Shown piece by piece: positions 11,686-39,833 of a stretch of DNA of 64,000 nt (positions are counted from its first letter, which is position 1; every line of letters begins with the position of its first letter). The notes beneath the pieces are model-generated. The model was not told where the DNA came from, did not search any database, and saw only the letters and a list, made by a program, of their open reading frames with translations. This DNA comes from Flavobacterium swingsii (lineage in GTDB: Bacteria > Bacteroidota > Bacteroidia > Flavobacteriales > Flavobacteriaceae), in contig NZ_FOJT01000001.1 of NCBI RefSeq assembly GCF_900111965.1, forward strand, positions 186,001 to 250,000, written 5' to 3'. The translations under genes were made by a program, and so were the position numbers.

Positions 11686-11700
11686 CAAAAAAATACTCTT

Positions 11701-32407: not shown

Positions 32408-33313
32408 ATGAGAGTTTTTTATATAATCCTATCGCTCCTTACTTTTATTTCTTGCAAAGATGACCACGAAAGAATGCACGAAGAAATGGATAAAGTTTCT
32501 AATGAACTCAGAAATTTTGATGTTCAATTAATTAAACTTTACAAAGAATCAGAAAATAACCCAAAAGGAGTAATCTCTAAAATAGACAGTCTCTTAGTTG
32601 CTAATAAAAAAGAAACAGATAAATATAAATCACAGATAAAATCAAGTATTGAAAGTAGTTTACACTATTTTAAAGCAGAGTTATTCTATAAAATAGGAAA
32701 ATATGACAAATCAATTAGTGAATTAGATTTTGAAGATTATAAGAAAGGTGATGCCGCAATTGCTTATACAGCAAATTATGTTAAACTAAAGGATTTCAAA
32801 ACTGCAAAATCATTTATCGATAGCATTGGGCGTTGTAATGGAAATTATTATGCGCTTGGAAATTATTATGAAAGCATCGGAGACAAAACTTCTGCTCTTA
32901 AAACATATAAGTATAATCTTGAAAATGATAAATCGAGAAAACATTTTATTTATTACAAATGGGCTGAAAGAAGAGTTGAAGAACTTGAACAAAATAGACC
33001 TTTAATCAATGAAATTTTTTTTCCAACAGGAAATTCAAGTTTTGAAATTTGCGAGGTTTGTAATCTCGACAATGAAAAAAGAGGAAAGATTATGAAGTTA
33101 ATTGAGGGAATTCCAGAAAATCAAAATGACTGGTCATCAACTTCTTTTAAAGAATCTCCATATGATACTGGAAAAAGTTACTATTGGGTTAAAGTCAAAG
33201 CTGGGAATAAAGAATTTAATTATTACGTTGACCAAAATACTTTTGAAATAAAATACTTCAATCCAAAAACTAAAACTGTAATGACATTGGAAGATTGGAG
33301 GAAAGGGAAATAA
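32408..33313 (+). CDS. Cassette 1: TPR-like lipoprotein
   Basis: 301 residues. Lipobox FISC at about residues 13-16. A charged coiled-coil stretch (DDHERMHEEMDKVSNELRNF) is followed by TPR-like helices (AELFYKIGKYDKSISELDFE, YALGNYYESIGDKTSALKTY) and an unrelated C-terminal domain of about 90 residues ending MTLEDWRKGK. Its stop is 12 bp before the AAC of an attC-like site. The left end of this unit has no matching site, so it may be the first cassette or the resident neighbour. Function unknown. Confidence 0.75.
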   Translation: MRVFYIILSLLTFISCKDDHERMHEEMDKVSNELRNFDVQLIKLYKESENNPKGVISKIDSLLVANKKETDKYKSQIKSSIESSLHYFKAELFYKIGKYDKSISELDFEDYKKGDAAIAYTANYVKLKDFKTAKSFIDSIGRCNGNYYALGNYYESIGDKTSALKTYKYNLENDKSRKHFIYYKWAERRVEELEQNRPLINEIFFPTGNSSFEICEVCNLDNEKRGKIMKLIEGIPENQNDWSSTSFKESPYDTGKSYYWVKVKAGNKEFNYYVDQNTFEIKYFNPKTKTVMTLEDWRKGK

Positions 33314-33317
33314 AAAC

Positions 33318-33456
33318 GGCTTATAACAGCTACTACAACGGATTTGGGCATTTGGCTTAATGGGAAAATGGTTTTGTATTTGGCAGTTTAGTGATAACCG
33401 AAAAATAAATTTTAATTTAGTCCCAAACCCGCTGTAGTACCAGAACGTTAGGCGTC
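33318..33456 (+). repeat. attC-like cassette site 1
   Basis: AAC (33325-33327) to GTT (33447-33449), 125 bp. Left arm AACAGCTACTACAACGGATT then TGGGC; right arm GTCCCAAACCCGCTGTAGTA then CCAGAACG. The 18-nt TACTACARCGGRTTTGGG pairs between arms. The end GTTAGGC fits GTTRRRY exactly. The conserved centre has TTTGGCTTAAT and TTAATTTAGTCCC. The left core, TTATAAC, deviates from RYYYAAC. Confidence 0.85.
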
Positions 33457-33481
33457 ACTTTGACAAACGAAATCGAGAATT

Positions 33482-34027
33482 ATGATTGATAAAGAAAGAA
33501 GAAAAAAATTAGCATATCATTTGAGACATTTATCAATTGGATTAATAACTAATGATGAGTTTGAAGAATATATTACTGACGATGTAACGTTTGGCTGGCT
33601 TCCAGAACAATATTATAGAGCGAAAGAAGCTAAAATTGACGATGCTATAATTAGACCTATGCTGGAATTAAGTTGGTGTTTATATAGTGATTTGAAAGAA
33701 TATAAATTAAAAGGTCATAACAAACTTAATGAGAAACAACTAAAAGATATAGCAAGGTTCATTTTATTCTTACACTCTGATAGCGAATATGAATGGCCAT
33801 ACATTGACCCAACAAGTCCGTTCATAAGATTCTCATTTAAAGATATCATTTTGAGCGTAATTACTTTGGGTCAACATTATAAAGACAAAAAAATTGAAAG
33901 AGAAAATGAATTTGCTGAAATGCAAAAAGTAGGTGATTTTGATTATTGGCCATTCATAACTAAAGAACAATACGAAGAACAACTAAAACATCAACCATTC
34001 TTATCGGAAAGAAAAGCGAACGCCTAA
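33482..34027 (+). CDS. Cassette 2: unknown cytosolic protein
   Basis: 181 residues, no signal or membrane helix. A helical N-terminus (KERRKKLAYHLRHLSIGLIT, NDEFEEYITDD) resembles small bacterial stress-island proteins with a DEFE motif; the rest is rich in Trp/Tyr (FGWLPEQYYRAKE, EYEWPYIDPTSPF). The TAA stop is inside the GCCTAAC core of the following site, so the gene runs right up to the recombination point. Only 34 bp separate the left junction from the ATG, leaving no room for a promoter. Function unknown. Confidence 0.8.
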   Translation: MIDKERRKKLAYHLRHLSIGLITNDEFEEYITDDVTFGWLPEQYYRAKEAKIDDAIIRPMLELSWCLYSDLKEYKLKGHNKLNEKQLKDIARFILFLHSDSEYEWPYIDPTSPFIRFSFKDIILSVITLGQHYKDKKIERENEFAEMQKVGDFDYWPFITKEQYEEQLKHQPFLSERKANA

Positions 34028-34158
34028 CAGCTACTACAACGGATTTGGGCATTTGGCTTAATTTAAAGTTGGTTTTGCATCCTTGAAGTCAGTGATTAAC
34101 CGAAAGTTTCGGCTTCTTTAGTTCGCAACCTCGCCAAGTGGCGGAACGTTGTATACAT
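34018..34158 (+). repeat. attC-like cassette site 2 (mismatched arms)
   Basis: CGCCTAAC (34021-34028) fits RYYYAAC; right end ACGTTGTATAC (junction 34148/34149). AAC to GTT is 125 bp. The left half is identical to site 1 for about 35 bp (AACAGCTACTACAACGG...), but the right half (CTCGCCAAGTGGCGGAACG) does not pair with it and instead resembles the right half of site 5. This site looks like a chimera of two site types. Confidence 0.8.
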
Positions 34159-34198
34159 TTTACCAAAATATGGACGAATTTCAATATTAATTAAACAT

Positions 34199-35011
34199 AT
34201 GTACTTAAAAATTAATAGATATAATCAATTTGACTCGCTTGAAGTTAAAGAATCAATGTTTAAAGAATTTAATTTACCAAATCACTTTCACGACACATAT
34301 TGTATAGGTTTACTTAATAATGGAATCAAAAAATGCACAATAGAAAATACTCCGCAATTAATTCATTCTAATAGTGTTAGTATAATAAATCCTTATCAAA
34401 TTCATTCTGATAAAAACGTAGATAATGAGGATTGTTTATTTCGAATGATTTACTTGAATAAAGATGTATTAAACTATTTTACTAAAAAAATTACAGGAAA
34501 AAATAATGAAAATATAATTTTTACGAATGATTTAATAACAGATTCTTTAGTTAATTCATCTATCTTAAGTTTTTTTAATGAAACAGATAATGGAATTTTA
34601 CTTGAACATAAATTAGAAAAGTTAATCCAAATTCTAATCAATAATAAATATTCAATCGACAATATTGATATTAATTATGATAATAAAAATGCAATTGATG
34701 ATAGTATCCAGAAAGCAAGATTAAATTTTTTCGATAAAATTGATATTGCTAAAATGTCACAAGAAAGTAAAATTAGTAAATATCAATTCATAAGATATTT
34801 TAAAAAGAAAACAGGACTTACACCTGCTTCCTATATTTTACTTCATAGAATAAATTGTTCTAAAACACTACTAATGAAAGATATTCCAATAGGAGAAATT
34901 GCTTTAGAAGTAGGTTTTTATGACCATGCCCAATTTTGTAAATTCTTTAAATATTACACCAATACTTCACCAACAGAATATCGATATAGCTGCAATATAA
35001 TACAAGCATAA
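34199..35011 (+). CDS. Cassette 3a: AraC-family transcriptional regulator
   Basis: 270 residues. N-terminal cupin sensor (NHFHDTYCIGLLNNGIKKCT, SNSVSIINPYQIHSD, about residues 1-85), helical linker, and the C-terminal double HTH: DIAKMSQESKISKYQFIRYF then KKKTGLTPASYILLHRIN and IGEIALEVGFYDHAQFCKFF (about 175-262). The ligand is not known. It shares one cassette with the secreted protein at 35075, which it may control. Starts 50 bp after the junction. Confidence 0.9.
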   Translation: MYLKINRYNQFDSLEVKESMFKEFNLPNHFHDTYCIGLLNNGIKKCTIENTPQLIHSNSVSIINPYQIHSDKNVDNEDCLFRMIYLNKDVLNYFTKKITGKNNENIIFTNDLITDSLVNSSILSFFNETDNGILLEHKLEKLIQILINNKYSIDNIDINYDNKNAIDDSIQKARLNFFDKIDIAKMSQESKISKYQFIRYFKKKTGLTPASYILLHRINCSKTLLMKDIPIGEIALEVGFYDHAQFCKFFKYYTNTSPTEYRYSCNIIQA

Positions 35012-35074
35012 TCAAATAATCTGCGATATATTTGCTCACTTGAAAATTATTCAAGAATTAATTTAAACATAAAA

Positions 35075-36244
35075 ATGAAAAATTGCTTAACATTTCTATT
35101 CGTATTTCTTTGTCCATTTTTATCAATTGCACAAAACAATTCTTTAATTATTTCTAAAATTATTGCACTACCAAAAGACAGTCTTGAAACTAAAAAATTG
35201 GTATCCTCATTTAATAATTTATTGATTGCAAAAGAAAAACCAAATGAAGAAAACAATTTTGTTTGGAACAAAGAAAATGTAGAAACCTATATTTTACTTG
35301 ATGAAATGAATGGAATCGAAAAAAGCGGAAAGTATAAAGATGATTTCTTCTTTAAACCCTATTTAACCAATGTTGTTAAATTAAGTAATACAGAATATTT
35401 TTTACAGTTTTCTTATATTGGAATTAGTGAAAATACTCCAACATTAAGAGGAAGTTTTGAACTAATTGCTCATAAAGAAAATGACCAATTCAAGTTTTCA
35501 TCAACATTAACACGTAATTCATCTAGTTGGGAAATAAAAAAAATTGGTAACTGCACTTTTCATTATAAAAAATCAATAAATGAAAAAACAGCAGTCAAAT
35601 ACGAAAAAGCAGTAGCTTCATTTGACAAAAAACTAAACGCTACAAATCAACAAACTGATATTTATTTTGGAGCAGATTTTCCTGAACTTTTGAAAATGAT
35701 AGGTGTTGAATATAAATTGGATTATAATAGCAGAGTATCTAGTACTTTTTCTTCTAAATCAGGAAACAGATTGTTAATTGTAAAAGGTGATAATGATACT
35801 AATTTCAACAACTTTGACTTACATGATTTATGGCATGAAAGACTTAAAAATGTTGTTTCATCAAAAATAATAAACAAACCAGTCGATGAAGGTTGTGCCT
35901 ATCTTTATGGTGGAAGTTGGGGTATAAGTTGGAAGGATATTTTTAAAACATTTAAGTTAAAAGTTGCTAATGATAGCAAAAAAAATTGGTTAGAAGTGTA
36001 TGGGAAATTTGATAATTTTGGAGAAACAAAAGAAACCCATTTAATGGCTGAATATGTAATAAACGCATTAATTGTGCAAAAAATAGAAAAGGAAAAAGGA
36101 TTTGAAAGTGTTTTAGAATTTGTAAGCTGTGGAAAATACAATAAAGAAAACGACAATTACTTTCAATCACTTGAGAAGCTAACAGGTATTAATAAAGTAA
36201 ATTTTAATCAAAAAGTTTGGGAATTAATTAATAATGAAAAATAA
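35075..36244 (+). CDS. Cassette 3b: secreted HDxxH-motif protein
   Basis: 389 residues. Signal peptide (about 1-20, ending SIAQ). Middle section strand-rich. At about residues 250-256 is LHDLWHERL and 20 residues on VDEGCAYLYGG; this matches the HExxH...EG(L/A)A layout of gluzincin metallopeptidases but with Asp in place of the catalytic Glu. It is therefore a degenerate or atypical peptidase, or a coincidence. It follows the AraC gene by 63 bp within the same cassette. The stop is 11 bp before the AAC of site 3. Confidence 0.75.
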   Translation: MKNCLTFLFVFLCPFLSIAQNNSLIISKIIALPKDSLETKKLVSSFNNLLIAKEKPNEENNFVWNKENVETYILLDEMNGIEKSGKYKDDFFFKPYLTNVVKLSNTEYFLQFSYIGISENTPTLRGSFELIAHKENDQFKFSSTLTRNSSSWEIKKIGNCTFHYKKSINEKTAVKYEKAVASFDKKLNATNQQTDIYFGADFPELLKMIGVEYKLDYNSRVSSTFSSKSGNRLLIVKGDNDTNFNNFDLHDLWHERLKNVVSSKIINKPVDEGCAYLYGGSWGISWKDIFKTFKLKVANDSKKNWLEVYGKFDNFGETKETHLMAEYVINALIVQKIEKEKGFESVLEFVSCGKYNKENDNYFQSLEKLTGINKVNFNQKVWELINNEK

Positions 36245-36245
36245 A

Positions 36246-36388
36246 AATGTCGTACAACAGCCCTTTGGCAAGATTTGGGTTTTAGGCTTAATTTGAAGTT
36301 GGTTTTGTATTTGGAAGATTTGGCAAATCCGAAGAATGAACTTAATTTAGTCCCAAACTGCGTGTAGCGCGGGAACGTTAGCAGAAAA
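36246..36388 (+). repeat. attC-like cassette site 3
   Basis: CGTACAAC (36251-36258) to ACGTTAGCAG (junction 36377/36378), AAC to GTT 124 bp. Conserved inner parts: GATTTGGGTTTTAGGCTTAA, TTTGAAGTTGGTTTTGTATT and CTTAATTTAGTCCCAAAC. The outer arms (CCCTTTGGCAA versus TGTAGCGCGGGAACG) pair poorly. Confidence 0.82.
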
Positions 36389-36472
36389 TTTCAACCAGTG
36401 TTCGGAGAAAAAAAAGACCCGCTCAATCTAATTCTAATGTGAGTATTGATTTACGTTTTAAATAATAATATT

Positions 36473-38029
36473 ATGAAATCTAATTTGTTAATATATGTTG
36501 CCTGTTTACTTTGTTTAAACGCATTCTCACAAGTGCCTAATATAGAGTGGCAAAAATCATTTGGAGGAAATATTCATGAAGAAGCATTCAATATTCAGCA
36601 AACAACTGATAATGGATATATAGTTTTAGGTTACACAAATTCAACTAATGGAAGTGTAATTACAGGACATCCTGGAGGTTACGATATTTGGATAGCAAAA
36701 TTAAGTTCGATTGGGAATATTGTTTGGCAAAGAACTTTAGGGGGTTCACAACATGATTGGGCATATAACATTCAGCAGACTTCTGATGGTGGATACATTT
36801 TAGCAGGGAGTACTGATTCAAATAATGGTGATGTTACAGGAAATAATGGTAACCTAGATTATTGGATTGTTAGATTAAATTCTGTTGGCGATATTATTTG
36901 GCAAAAAAACTATGGTGGTTCAGATCATGATTATGCAAGAAGTATAAAACAAACTTTGGATGGTGGTTTTATTGTTGTAGGTGGTACAAGTTCAAATAAC
37001 GGTGATGTATCTGGAAATCATAATGCTTTATCTGATTATTGGATATTAAAATTAAACTCATCAGGTGAAATTATTTGGAAAAAATGTTTAGGTGGTACAA
37101 GTCATGATGCGGCTTATGATATTCAAATTACTTCAGATGGAGGCTATATTATTACAGGTGTATCTAGTTCATTAGATGGAAATGTCACAGGGAACCATGG
37201 TGGTGGGAGTAGAGATTTTTGGGTTGTAAAAACGAATGCAACTGGAGATATTATTTGGCAGAAATCATTAGGTGGTACTAGTGAAGATTTTTCTCATAAC
37301 ATTCAACAAACCACAGATAATGGGTTTATTGTCACTGGATATAGTTCTTCAAATAATAGTGATGTTACCGGCAATCATGGTAACTACGATTGTTGGATTG
37401 TCAAATTGAATGCAACAGGTGATATTATTTGGCAAAAATCATTAGGAGGAACAAATATAGATTCGGCTTACTCAACCAAACAAACTACGGATGGTGGGTA
37501 TATTGTTGCAGGATATTCGAGTTCAAATGATGGTGATGTATCTGGAAATCATGGGAATAATGATATGTGGATTATTAAACTAAATAATTCTGGTGATATT
37601 GTTTGGCAAAAAACATTAGGGGGTTCAGCTGATGACAGAGCATTTAGTATAATTCAAACCATTGATGGAGGTTATGTTGTTGCAGGAGTTTCTTGGTCAA
37701 ATGATGGTGATTTGATTAATAATCAAGGATATGGAGATGTTTGGATTGTAAAATTATCTCCTGAAAATTTATCAATTTCTGAACATGATGCATCAAAATT
37801 TTCTATTTACCCTAATCCTACAAACAATTATATAAAAATTCAAAATAAAGAAAATTCAACTGCAAATTTTGATTACAAGATTATTGATTTAATAGGTAGA
37901 ATTATAAAAATTGGAAAATCAAAATTTAATGAACAAATTAATATTGAAAGTCTAACCAACGGAAATTATATAATTCAAGTTGAAACTGAAAATGGAAAAA
38001 AAACAACTAAAAAACTGATTAAAAATTAA
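36473..38029 (+). CDS. Cassette 4: secreted seven-repeat propeller with T9SS sorting domain
   Basis: 518 residues from ATG 36473. Signal peptide (about 1-20, ending AFSQ). Then seven repeats of about 57 residues, each like IWQKSLGGTSxDxAxxIQQT, DGGYIVAGxSSSNxGDVTG and DxWIVKLNxxGDI, as expected of a seven-bladed beta-propeller. The last 75 residues (SIYPNPTNNYIKIQ ... NGNYIIQVETENGKKTTKKL) form a type A type IX secretion sorting domain, so the protein is exported through T9SS and anchored or released at the cell surface. Ligand unknown. Confidence 0.9.
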   Translation: MKSNLLIYVACLLCLNAFSQVPNIEWQKSFGGNIHEEAFNIQQTTDNGYIVLGYTNSTNGSVITGHPGGYDIWIAKLSSIGNIVWQRTLGGSQHDWAYNIQQTSDGGYILAGSTDSNNGDVTGNNGNLDYWIVRLNSVGDIIWQKNYGGSDHDYARSIKQTLDGGFIVVGGTSSNNGDVSGNHNALSDYWILKLNSSGEIIWKKCLGGTSHDAAYDIQITSDGGYIITGVSSSLDGNVTGNHGGGSRDFWVVKTNATGDIIWQKSLGGTSEDFSHNIQQTTDNGFIVTGYSSSNNSDVTGNHGNYDCWIVKLNATGDIIWQKSLGGTNIDSAYSTKQTTDGGYIVAGYSSSNDGDVSGNHGNNDMWIIKLNNSGDIVWQKTLGGSADDRAFSIIQTIDGGYVVAGVSWSNDGDLINNQGYGDVWIVKLSPENLSISEHDASKFSIYPNPTNNYIKIQNKENSTANFDYKIIDLIGRIIKIGKSKFNEQINIESLTNGNYIIQVETENGKKTTKKLIKN

Positions 38030-38030
38030 A

Positions 38031-38174
38031 TCTTCTGCTAACAGCGGTTTCCCAAGATTTGGGTTTTAGGTTTGATTTTAAGTTGGTCTTGCATTTCTAA
38101 AATTTGTATTTATCCAAAAATTAAATCTTAATTTAGTCCCAAACCTCGCGAAACCGCAGGACGTTGGCAGAAAC
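38031..38174 (+). repeat. attC-like cassette site 4
   Basis: TTCTGCTAAC (38033-38042) to GACGTTGGCAGAA (junction 38163/38164), AAC to GTT 126 bp. Arms pair well: GCGGTTTCCCAAGATTTGGG against the inverse of CCCAAACCTCGCGAAACCGC. Conserved GTTTTAGGTTTGATTTTAAG and TTAATTTAGTCCC. The best-folded of the five sites with site 1. Confidence 0.87.
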
Positions 38175-38209
38175 CATAACAAAAAAATAACCAAGAGAAA
38201 ACCTTTTTT

Positions 38210-39553
38210 ATGAAATACATTTTATTAATTCCCTTTTTATTAGTTTCCCAATTAATCCAATCACAATGTTGGTCAAAAATTTCAACTGGTAATTTTTTTA
38301 CTTTAGCTATAAAAAACGATGGAACTTTATGGGGCTGGGGTGATAACATTCATTATCAATTAGGCGGAAATTCAAGTACGAATAAATTAATTCCAACACA
38401 AATAGGTACAGATAGTAACTGGCTTGACGTTTCTGCTGGATCAAGTCATGTTATTGCATTAAAATCAAATGGTACACTTTGGGCTTGGGGAATGATGGTT
38501 TACCCATTTGCTCAAACACCAACTCAAATAGGTATTAATACAGATTGGCTTAAAATTTCTGCAGGCTTTGCACATAATTTAGCATTAAAAAACAATGGAA
38601 CTCTTTGGGCATGGGGTGATAATTCATTCGGACAAATAGGTAACGGTACGAATAATTTTGCGATTCAACCCACTCAGGTTGATACCTCAACGAATTGGTC
38701 TGAAATAAGTACGCAAAATTCTCATAATTTAGCTATTAAAACAGATGGTACACTTTGGTCTTGGGGACTAAATAATGATGGACAATTAGGTGACAATAGC
38801 TTAGTAAATAAAAACATTCCTGTACAAGTTGGAACTAACACTAATTGGTCAAAAATTTCTGCAGGTTATTATCATTCTTTAGCTATTAAAACTAATACTA
38901 CTTTATGGTCTTTTGGGTCAAACACTTTTGGCCAGTTGGGAGACAATTCCAACACCAATAAATTAATTCCTGTACAAGTAGGAACAAACTGGTTAAATGT
39001 TTCAGCAGGAGGCTTTCATTCATTGGTTATAAAAGACAATCATGAACTATATGCTTTTGGACACAATAATTATGGTCAATTAGGAGACAATAGCATGACT
39101 GAAAGAGCCATTCCAACATTAATTGGAACGACACAAGACTTGTCTGATATTTCAAGTGGATATTATCATTCATTCGTAATTAAATCGGACAATTCCATCT
39201 TAGGGACAGGCAACAATAATCATGGACAAATTGGTGATAATTCAATAAATGAAAAACACATCTATACTTTCATTGATTGTTCAACTTTAGGAAACAGTGA
39301 GTTTGAAGTTGATTCTAATAATTTAATAGTTTATCCTAATCCAACATCTGGAATAATAAATGTGGGGGGCTCGAAAATTGTTGAAATTTTAACTATTGAA
39401 GTTAGCGATATGAATGGTAGAATAGTTTTTTCAAATACGTCCGGAAAAAACACAAATTATTTAGATTTAAATACTTTTCAAAATGGTATTTATTTAATTA
39501 AAGTAATAACAAGCGAAGGAATTAAAGTTAGAAAAATAATAAAAATGGATTAA
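38210..39553 (+). CDS. Cassette 5: secreted RCC1-repeat protein with T9SS sorting domain
   Basis: 447 residues. Signal peptide (about 1-18, ending LIQSQ). Seven RCC1-type repeats of about 50 residues with NGTLWAWGDNSFGQIGNG, TDGTLWSWGLNNDGQLGDNS and similar words, predicting a seven-bladed propeller. The C-terminus (IVYPNPTSGIINVGG ... NGIYLIKVITSEGIKVRKI) is a type A T9SS sorting domain. It starts 46 bp after the junction and stops 12 bp before the AAC of site 5. Possibly surface adhesion or contact recognition; not provable here. Confidence 0.9.
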   Translation: MKYILLIPFLLVSQLIQSQCWSKISTGNFFTLAIKNDGTLWGWGDNIHYQLGGNSSTNKLIPTQIGTDSNWLDVSAGSSHVIALKSNGTLWAWGMMVYPFAQTPTQIGINTDWLKISAGFAHNLALKNNGTLWAWGDNSFGQIGNGTNNFAIQPTQVDTSTNWSEISTQNSHNLAIKTDGTLWSWGLNNDGQLGDNSLVNKNIPVQVGTNTNWSKISAGYYHSLAIKTNTTLWSFGSNTFGQLGDNSNTNKLIPVQVGTNWLNVSAGGFHSLVIKDNHELYAFGHNNYGQLGDNSMTERAIPTLIGTTQDLSDISSGYYHSFVIKSDNSILGTGNNNHGQIGDNSINEKHIYTFIDCSTLGNSEFEVDSNNLIVYPNPTSGIINVGGSKIVEILTIEVSDMNGRIVFSNTSGKNTNYLDLNTFQNGIYLIKVITSEGIKVRKIIKMD

Positions 39554-39554
39554 A

Positions 39555-39697
39555 TGGCATCTGCCAACAGCGGTTTCCCAAAATGTGAGCTTTAGTCTTT
39601 AATTTAAACTTTGTTTTGTCCTTTCGTGTTCTGTGATTTACCGAAAGTTAAGGCATACCAAATCCCACACTTCGCCAAGCCGAAAAACGTCGTCAGG
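39555..39697 (+). repeat. attC-like cassette site 5 (right end of array)
   Basis: ATCTGCCAAC (39559-39568) to AACGTCGTCAGG (junction about 39689/39690), 126 bp to the degenerate GTC. The left half is close to site 4 (AACAGCGGTTTCCCAAAATG), the right half (CCACACTTCGCCAAGCCG) close to site 2. The final core has C where GTT is expected, fitting the last, non-recombining edge. Confidence 0.75.
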
Positions 39698-39753
39698 TAA
39701 AAGACAAAAGCCAATAGTTAAAACTCATTTAACTATTGGCTTTTACCTTTTTT
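39696..39753 (+). terminator. Terminator/hairpin right of the cassette array
   Basis: Stem AAAAGCCAATAGTTA / TAACTATTGGCTTTT extended by GGT/ACC after a 7-nt duplication (AAAAGAC, AAAAGCC) in the left arm; a T-run follows. It isolates the array from the sigma operon. Confidence 0.75.
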
Positions 39754-39833
39754 CTAATGCCTTAAAAAAAATATTTTACCTTCGTCCCAACCTTTTTATA
39801 AAAAATAGTCTCTTTAGTATAAAGACATCAATT

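Follow-up and report, generated by a model that had tools for sequence, protein, structure and literature searches.

The 64,000-nucleotide stretch of the Flavobacterium swingsii genome analyzed here (the window; positions 186001-250000 of contig C10, NZ_FOJT01000001.1, within a 2.57-Mb assembly) carries an array of gene cassettes bounded by five sites that resemble the attC sites of integrons. With a probability of roughly 85%, we consider this array to be a detached part of an integron-like system of the Bacteroidota, in which a tyrosine recombinase without the insertion typical of integron integrases (IntI) is predicted to shuffle cassettes through the folded bottom strand of each site. No integrase is encoded in the window, and the recombinase gene of the system lies approximately 361 kb away on the same contig; with at least two attC-like sites and no integrase nearby, the array answers to the description of clusters of attC sites lacking integron integrases (CALIN), and the original prediction of an integron-like or CALIN-like array is upheld. 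As judged from sequence, the array appears to be a CALIN-like relative of an integron-like system whose enzyme and sites depart from those of classical integrons in matching fashion, and we do not class it as a classical integron because two defining features, the IntI-specific domain and the extrahelical bases of the sites, are absent. Linkage to an enzyme other than IntI makes the finding more unusual than was originally supposed. No report of such a system was found among open-licence papers, to which the searches were limited, in the parts of these texts available.

The five sites, recognized by reading and aligning the sequence, lie between six plus-strand open reading frames (ORFs), are all given here on the plus strand, open with AACAGC and extend over 124-126 bp from AAC to GTT or GTC, a length that sets them apart from the short dif-like sites of XerCD-dif modules. 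Site s1 (33321..33453; AAC to GTT at 33325-33449, 125 bp) runs from a RYYYAAC-like core to a GTTAGGC core, with the G|TT point after 33447; it is followed by s2 (34022..34154; AAC to GTT at 34026-34150, 125 bp), s3 (36252..36383; AAC to GTT at 36256-36379, 124 bp), s4 (38036..38169; AAC to GTT at 38040-38165, 126 bp) and, last of the array, s5 (39562..39695; 39566-39691, 126 bp, with the GTC end). These had been described as five imperfect palindromes, and the positions, lengths, AACAGC starts and GTC end stand; the palindromic character does not hold throughout, as 19, 19 and 17 of 22 arm positions pair in s1, s4 and s5, but only 13 in s2 and 11 in s3, which is unpaired in its outer arms, and neither of the latter exceeds mixed arms (mean 13.8). 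The stop codon TAA at 34025-34027 is indeed inside a site core, and other stops fall 11-13 bp before the core AAC, close to the 12 bp originally given, although there are four of these and not three. Rfam has no family for the window sites, the five matches to microRNA models all being far below gathering scores. The original suggestion that this class of sites would escape a standard attC model is plausible. Directly after s5, at 39692-39760, an inverted repeat followed by a T-rich stretch forms a terminator-like array end.

In integrons, a cassette starts with a half core that pairs, in the circle, with the start of its own attC. The window array shows the same signature, a feature absent from the original prediction: the five sites delimit four complete plus-strand cassettes, and cassette 2 (33448..34148) starts with GTTAGGCGT, cassette 3 (34149..36377) with GTTGTA, cassette 4 (36378..38163) with GTTAGCAGAA and cassette 5 (38164..39689) with GTTGGCAGA, respectively 9, 6, 10 and 9 nt that are the reverse complement of the start of the cassette's own site. 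Because each complete cassette carries this match of 6-10 nt, the window sites are real and mark cassettes. Over 168 consecutive cassettes from the own genome and related loci, the complementarity averages 8.6 nt, as against 4.0 in 200 shuffles (maximum 4.29), 4.15 with other cassettes of the same locus and 3.9 between the two cores of the same site in place; 230 of 239 sites had cores clear enough for this test. The run is exactly 10 nt long in 97 of the 168, and the classical attC core is 7 nt. The longest ORF points along the array in 154 of these cassettes and opposite to it in 4, and 10 have no ORF of 60 aa. An alignment of 51 diverse sites contains 23 pairs, 18 of them with compensatory changes, and one bottom-strand G.T pair is kept in 50 of the 51; the bottom strand gives the stabler fold in 169 sites and the top strand in 55. 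The family as a whole possesses the core pair and bottom-strand fold of attC sites, and three of the five window sites pair well.

Three genes of the genome match an integrase model, one XerD-like, one XerC-like and one for a 347-aa tyrosine recombinase (C10:586369-587412) whose closest named relatives are from Flavobacterium; no IntI exceeds the cut-off. A site model, R1, built from seven sites (s3, itself an R1 match, belongs to this training set), detects 40 sites in the genome, the seven included, on contigs C3, C7 and C10 and as singles, and none at the XerC and XerD loci. On the 3' side of the 347-aa recombinase gene, in the same direction, are an attI-like junction and two sites, and the contig ends where the second site ends; by eye, both cassettes show the match of start and own site (GTTGTGC / GCACAAC and GTTATGCG / CGCATAAC). 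The final 585 bp of C10 (locus L007, 9998-10582) recur without a difference at the end of contig C7 (L165), which carries another array, and for this reason the C7 array probably continues from the recombinase. The genome also holds eight lone sites (L166-L173); upstream of four of them (L166, L169, L170 and L173), by 524-1068 bp, there is a matching cassette start with a 9-nt run and, in the stretch examined, no preceding site, which suggests insertion at secondary targets.

Beside the recombinase gene there is also an insertion point comparable, by sequence, to the attI of integrons. The first cassette starts 92-156 nt past the last codon of the recombinase in 33 of 41 loci, with a start that matches its own site over at least 7 nt, and the conserved junction TATAWACWA|GTT marks this start. 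The motif occurs in 44 of 60 loci and in 185 of 12000 random windows, the pattern having been written after the loci had been seen. Upstream of the junction are species-variable repeats, and 23 of 35 aligned attI regions contain TAnnTTTG (208 of 7000 shuffles), which we take to resemble the Bacteroidetes -7 promoter element; a promoter next to attI may drive the cassettes.

The window array is a detached array and, since the arms of s2 and s3 do not pair, a partly decayed one. Bottom-strand folding of single sites, with z-scores of -2.7 (s1), -3.8 (s4), -0.4 (s2), -0.5 (s3) and +0.3 (s5), is weak evidence, three of the five being no better than shuffles. Site s2 looks like a hybrid of two sites, because this cassette, where it occurs in another species (L485), has a site that matches only the right part of s2 (34120-34150, at 93.5%; the left part is unlike) and itself pairs well (20 of 22). 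Given the ~361 kb between them, the array would either be served in trans by the recombinase or be a relic. A reading compatible with our own, to which we give somewhat less than an even chance, is that the array is an inert fossil, a product of this system in which recombination has ceased and which has been kept for its genes or by chance: the unpaired arms of s2 and s3, the GTC end of s5 and the distance from any attI or recombinase would agree with this, but s1, s4 and s5 still pair well and the arrays on C3 and C7 hold many sites.

The enzyme itself departs from expectation. An IntI-type recombinase had been anticipated at array ends; a recombinase does stand at the starts of arrays, but it lacks the IntI insertion and reaches 205.3 bits with the integron integrase model TIGR02249 (cut-off 265) and 217.7 bits with the XerA-like model NF040815 (curated cut-off 220). 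The alignment with IntI4 (2a3v) comes in two pieces, 16 residues of the recombinase facing 58 of IntI4 (185-242), and the two-part insertion is missing altogether from 10 of 10 family members aligned with four IntI. The available text of PMC9668308 defines an integron integrase by an IntI-specific additional domain near patch III, which the recombinase does not have; it does share the C-terminal SP.D motif with IntI. The predicted structure (mean predicted local distance difference score, pLDDT, 81.8; predicted template-modelling score, pTM, 0.57) is nearest to XerA and IntI4, a comparison well tested for residues 68-335 only.

Phylogenetically, the family and IntI fall together at 100/100 when Xer proteins serve as outgroup, and IntI form one clade adjoining the recombinases of L286 and L289 (94/97). 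The first tree held 90 proteins (from 22 of the 64 genus loci and all 41 others, plus 27 references); the second, from which these supports come, was reduced to 54 of them. Among 200 bootstrap trees, 0% unite the family in a single clade, and the approximately unbiased (AU) test does not reject one clade (p 0.219); a nesting of IntI within the family, favored by the tree, is not claimed, nor is any branching order of family and IntI, because that test allows a single family clade. Most members bear ~65 residues ahead of the core-binding domain. A profile of 34 such N-terminal domains finds the HARP domain of SMARCAL1 as its best solved match (4o66, E 5e-5), and PF07443 matches one of five proteins at E 5.5e-5 and 23.1 bits, below the Pfam cut-off of 25; HARP domains are said, in the available text of PMC9243424, to mediate annealing helicase activity. 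Some members are without this domain, and three of these (L287, L291 and L292) have their sites upstream, divergent from the gene, which is the arrangement of classical integrons. Relatives of 40-47% identity, most of them devoid of the N-terminal domain, also occur on viral contigs.

The sites differ from classical attC at the corresponding point. According to the available text of PMC7790495, the I2 helix of IntI docks bases that protrude from attC. A model-free detector that requires paired arms and a cassette-start match accepted, in its strict form, 264 sites in 52 of 147 family loci and 25 in 6 of 20 IntI loci, as compared with 3 sites in 1 of 147 and 0 in 20 after shuffling; the 147 are recombinase loci (some named ones from other phyla) plus three own arrays, namely the window, L164 and L165. 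The arms differ by at least two bulged bases in 10 of the 264 family sites vs 24 of the 25 IntI-linked sites (Fisher p 4.5e-26), the latter having their bulges at few fixed places on one arm, so that the extrahelical bases of classical attC are not a feature of the family. On these counts, absence of the insertion is paired with absence of the bulges. L289, from the lineage nearest IntI in the tree, is the sole family locus with a median difference of 2. A loose de novo detector was rejected when block-shuffled loci gave as many chains (33/60 vs 26/60); an earlier detector version found no chain in the window array. Counts of G.T pairs in each arm carried no information, as such pairs were favored by the scoring.

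These observations render it improbable that we are dealing with a classical integron whose IntI has merely diverged. Such an origin would fit the grouping of the recombinase with IntI against Xer (100/100) and the common SP.D motif, but it leaves unexplained that the whole two-part insertion is gone from all ten aligned relatives, that family sites have no one-arm bulges, and that some genomes (e.g. G150 and G439) encode both a true IntI and a recombinase of this family, each by a gene of its own. Of 395 sampled phylum genomes, 105 encode a true IntI above the curated cut-off, and none of these belongs to the genus, family or order of the window, in whose sampled genomes TIGR02249 gave no match at E<=1e-50. 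This count is higher than suggested by a 2022 survey, the available text of which reports the addition of one complete integron in Bacteroidetes proper (PMC9024848).

The association of recombinase and sites extends across the phylum. The same sites were expected to recur with other cargo, and R1 finds them in 125 of 150 genus genomes and in 111 of the 395 phylum genomes; the recombinase is present in 61 of the former (E<=1e-80) and 99 of the latter (E<=1e-60). Downstream sites accompany 41 of 64 genus recombinase loci by R1, with 199 sites in the same direction as the gene, 0 opposite and 1 upstream, the nearest at a median of 737 bp. Less than 2 kb of downstream DNA is available in 9 of these 41 and in 16 of the 23 site-less loci; among loci with at least 2 kb, sites are found in 32 of 39 with R1 and in 36 of 39 with a second model, R2. 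A further 41 loci have downstream sites in 22 cases by R1 (46 same direction, 0 opposite, 3 upstream) and in 30 by R2, which took sites from 21 of these 41, such that 18 of the 30 positive loci contributed to the model and 12 did not. Among 80 loci of named records, whose sites were used in neither model, 17 have matches; by their names all 17 are Bacteroidota, and they include Algoriphagus ornithinivorans, Algibacter onchidii, Seonamhaeicola aphaedonensis and Flavobacterium aciduliphilum. Of 42 matches, 39 are downstream and co-directional, L335 and L355 have an upstream match only, and L323 and L145 seem to lie on one and the same contig. The linkage holds down to 36% identity, and in a control of 20 true-IntI loci from the phylum R2 matched 2 (L313, 36.7 bits; L311, 26.6 bits). 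The linkage count took 239 of 242 site matches, the three omitted being a site cut by a contig end (L164, 1-98), a 93-nt downstream partial match in L116 (same direction) and an other-strand reading in L150; other-strand readings of counted sites also exist at the phylum loci L319, L266, L297 and L269 and at the named locus L326. One system is plasmid-borne (L319, Chryseobacterium sp. SNU WT5 plasmid NZ_CP041688.1, 14001-28649; recombinase 69% identical), where co-directional Crp/Fnr, RidA, phosphoesterase and other genes follow the recombinase, a series broken up by genes for an IS110-family transposase and a group II intron reverse transcriptase and by two more transposase genes in opposite orientation.

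Slightly less probable again than a diverged IntI is that some other recombinase, XerC/XerD or an undetected IntI, moves the cassettes, the linked gene being a passenger. The genome does contain XerC- and XerD-like genes, and many genomes have sites with no match to the linked recombinase; on the other hand, no IntI above the cut-off exists in the own genome and none at E<=1e-50 in the sampled genus, family and order, the own XerC and XerD loci are without sites, and the linked gene stands at array heads in a single orientation, with an attI-like motif behind it, down to 36% identity.

Comparisons between species, scored as identity in the 60 nt to the left and right of G|TT, show that homologous cassettes have their edges at this point, where breaks had been predicted. 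The left/right values are 0.55/0.78 for L007 and L107 (right edge at a contig end), 0.63/0.95 for L269 and L298, from two families (the right edge shows no clear step, 0.83/0.72), 0.55/0.87 for a cassette that lies mid-array in L143 but comes first, at attI, in L269, and 0.58/0.75 for L171 and L265; L113 and L120 (0.55/0.92) share an insert and not a plain cassette, and the comparison of L114 with L117 failed (0.65/0.62) because homology in L114 sets in 112 nt past the edge, on the far side of an insert. The insert starting TCAGGCTGTGAAAAAACCTC begins exactly at site cores in L113, L114 and L120 (oriented near 11686, 13263 and 6014) and is perhaps an insertion element that targets the sites. 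Cassette 2 of the window has homologues in G594 (85%), G552 (87%) and G010 (80%); in G552, identity amounts to 18 of 60 positions ahead of the edge and 53 of 60 beyond it, G594 resembles the window in the preceding site as well (39 and 52 of 60), and the G010 match starts at 33447. By species comparison, the units behave as one-gene mobile cassettes with G|TT edges. Very similar sites are seen by eye in L259, L261, L298 and L319, and L269 and L298 share one 1-kb cassette at 91% identity; found in different families, such sites and cassettes point, from their sequence likeness, to exchange across Bacteroidota. Unrelated intergenic repeats such as terminators or repetitive extragenic palindromic (REP)-like elements would also be intergenic and often form hairpins, but are a most improbable source of own-cassette complementarity, fixed orientation behind a recombinase and cassette-exact homology.

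As for cargo, the first window cassette contributes the ORF before s1 (32408..33313, plus strand, 301 aa), and its left edge was not found, the best start match being 7 nt only and inside that ORF. Cassette 2 consists of ORF 33482-34027 (181 aa, no Pfam family) plus s2; cassette 3 holds two ORFs, an AraC-family regulator (34199-35011) and 35075-36244 (389 aa, no Pfam family), plus s3. The neighboring cassettes 4 and 5 both code for repeat proteins with type IX secretion tails, the former with ORF 36473-38029 (C-terminal tail, PF18962, 1e-13) plus s4 and the latter with ORF 38210-39553 (RCC1-repeat protein, PF18962 tail) plus s5. PADLOC identified no defence gene in the window cassettes, with one match at 14.9 bits.

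In the mechanism that we propose, the linked recombinase would move the cassettes, acting on the folded bottom strand, and on that strand only, of each site and so shuffling the genes, and its HARP-like N-terminal domain may help to recognize or anneal the folded site, where IntI uses the I2 helix and extrahelical bases. Several observations weigh against this interpretation. Within the window, neither an attI nor a left edge is seen, and s2 and s3 fold poorly. The HARP match is weak (PF07443 matches 5 of 34 at E<1, DUF5710 8 of 34 with a best of 2.5e-4), and the N-terminus of the F. swingsii recombinase alone matches no Pfam family. One-base differences between arms are common in family sites (77 of 264). 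Many genus arrays are without a detected enzyme (125 genomes with sites vs 61 with the recombinase), although recombinases in some site-bearing genomes may be more diverged; 3 of 39 genus loci with at least 2 kb of downstream DNA have no site even by R2, and by the same model 4 of the 41 other loci have upstream sites only and 7 have none. Finally, published studies of IntI1 regard the I2 insertion as a requirement for cassette capture (available text of PMC7790495).

The available texts of PMC7790495 and PMC4792948 further describe this insertion as found in no other protein, and the joint origin of I2 and extrahelical bases as a chicken-and-egg paradox for which intermediates are lacking. 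A cassette platform without insertion and bulges, with sites in 111 of 395 phylum genomes, makes the question of integron origin directly testable, and the system points to a large gene-exchange route in Bacteroidota. We tentatively propose, while holding it somewhat less likely than its negation, that Bacteroidota harbor an older, parallel integron branch, lacking extrahelical bases and I2 and often equipped with a HARP-like domain, within which classical IntI arose; if true, cassettes and attC preceded I2, and the published chicken-and-egg question would be answered.

Comparison with known systems places the family between several of them. With integrons and CALIN it has in common cassettes that are mostly co-directional and carry one gene, RYYYAAC- and GTTRRRY-like cores, a bottom-strand hairpin, G|TT edges, an insertion point beside the recombinase gene, and arrays distant from the recombinase. 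It differs from integrons in a recombinase that lacks the IntI insertion and most often has a HARP-like N-terminus, and in sites without two-base extrahelical bulges and with matching cores that extend further, to 10 nt in 97 of 168 cassettes. In classical integrons intI is divergent from its array, whereas the recombinase gene of the family usually runs in the array direction. Its best solved relatives by sequence and fold are Xer/XerA proteins (4a8e, 5hxy), which likewise have no IntI insertion; unlike these, the family is linked to cassette arrays and is split from Xer at 100/100, the XerC- and XerD-like proteins of F. swingsii being other genes. An 'integron-like' subgroup of simple tyrosine recombinases has been named (PMC8138268), for whose members the available text describes no attC arrays, attI or Bacteroidota systems. 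The N-terminal ~65 residues, lastly, resemble by profile the HARP domain of SMARCAL1 (PDB 4o66), from which the recombinase differs in having no helicase part.

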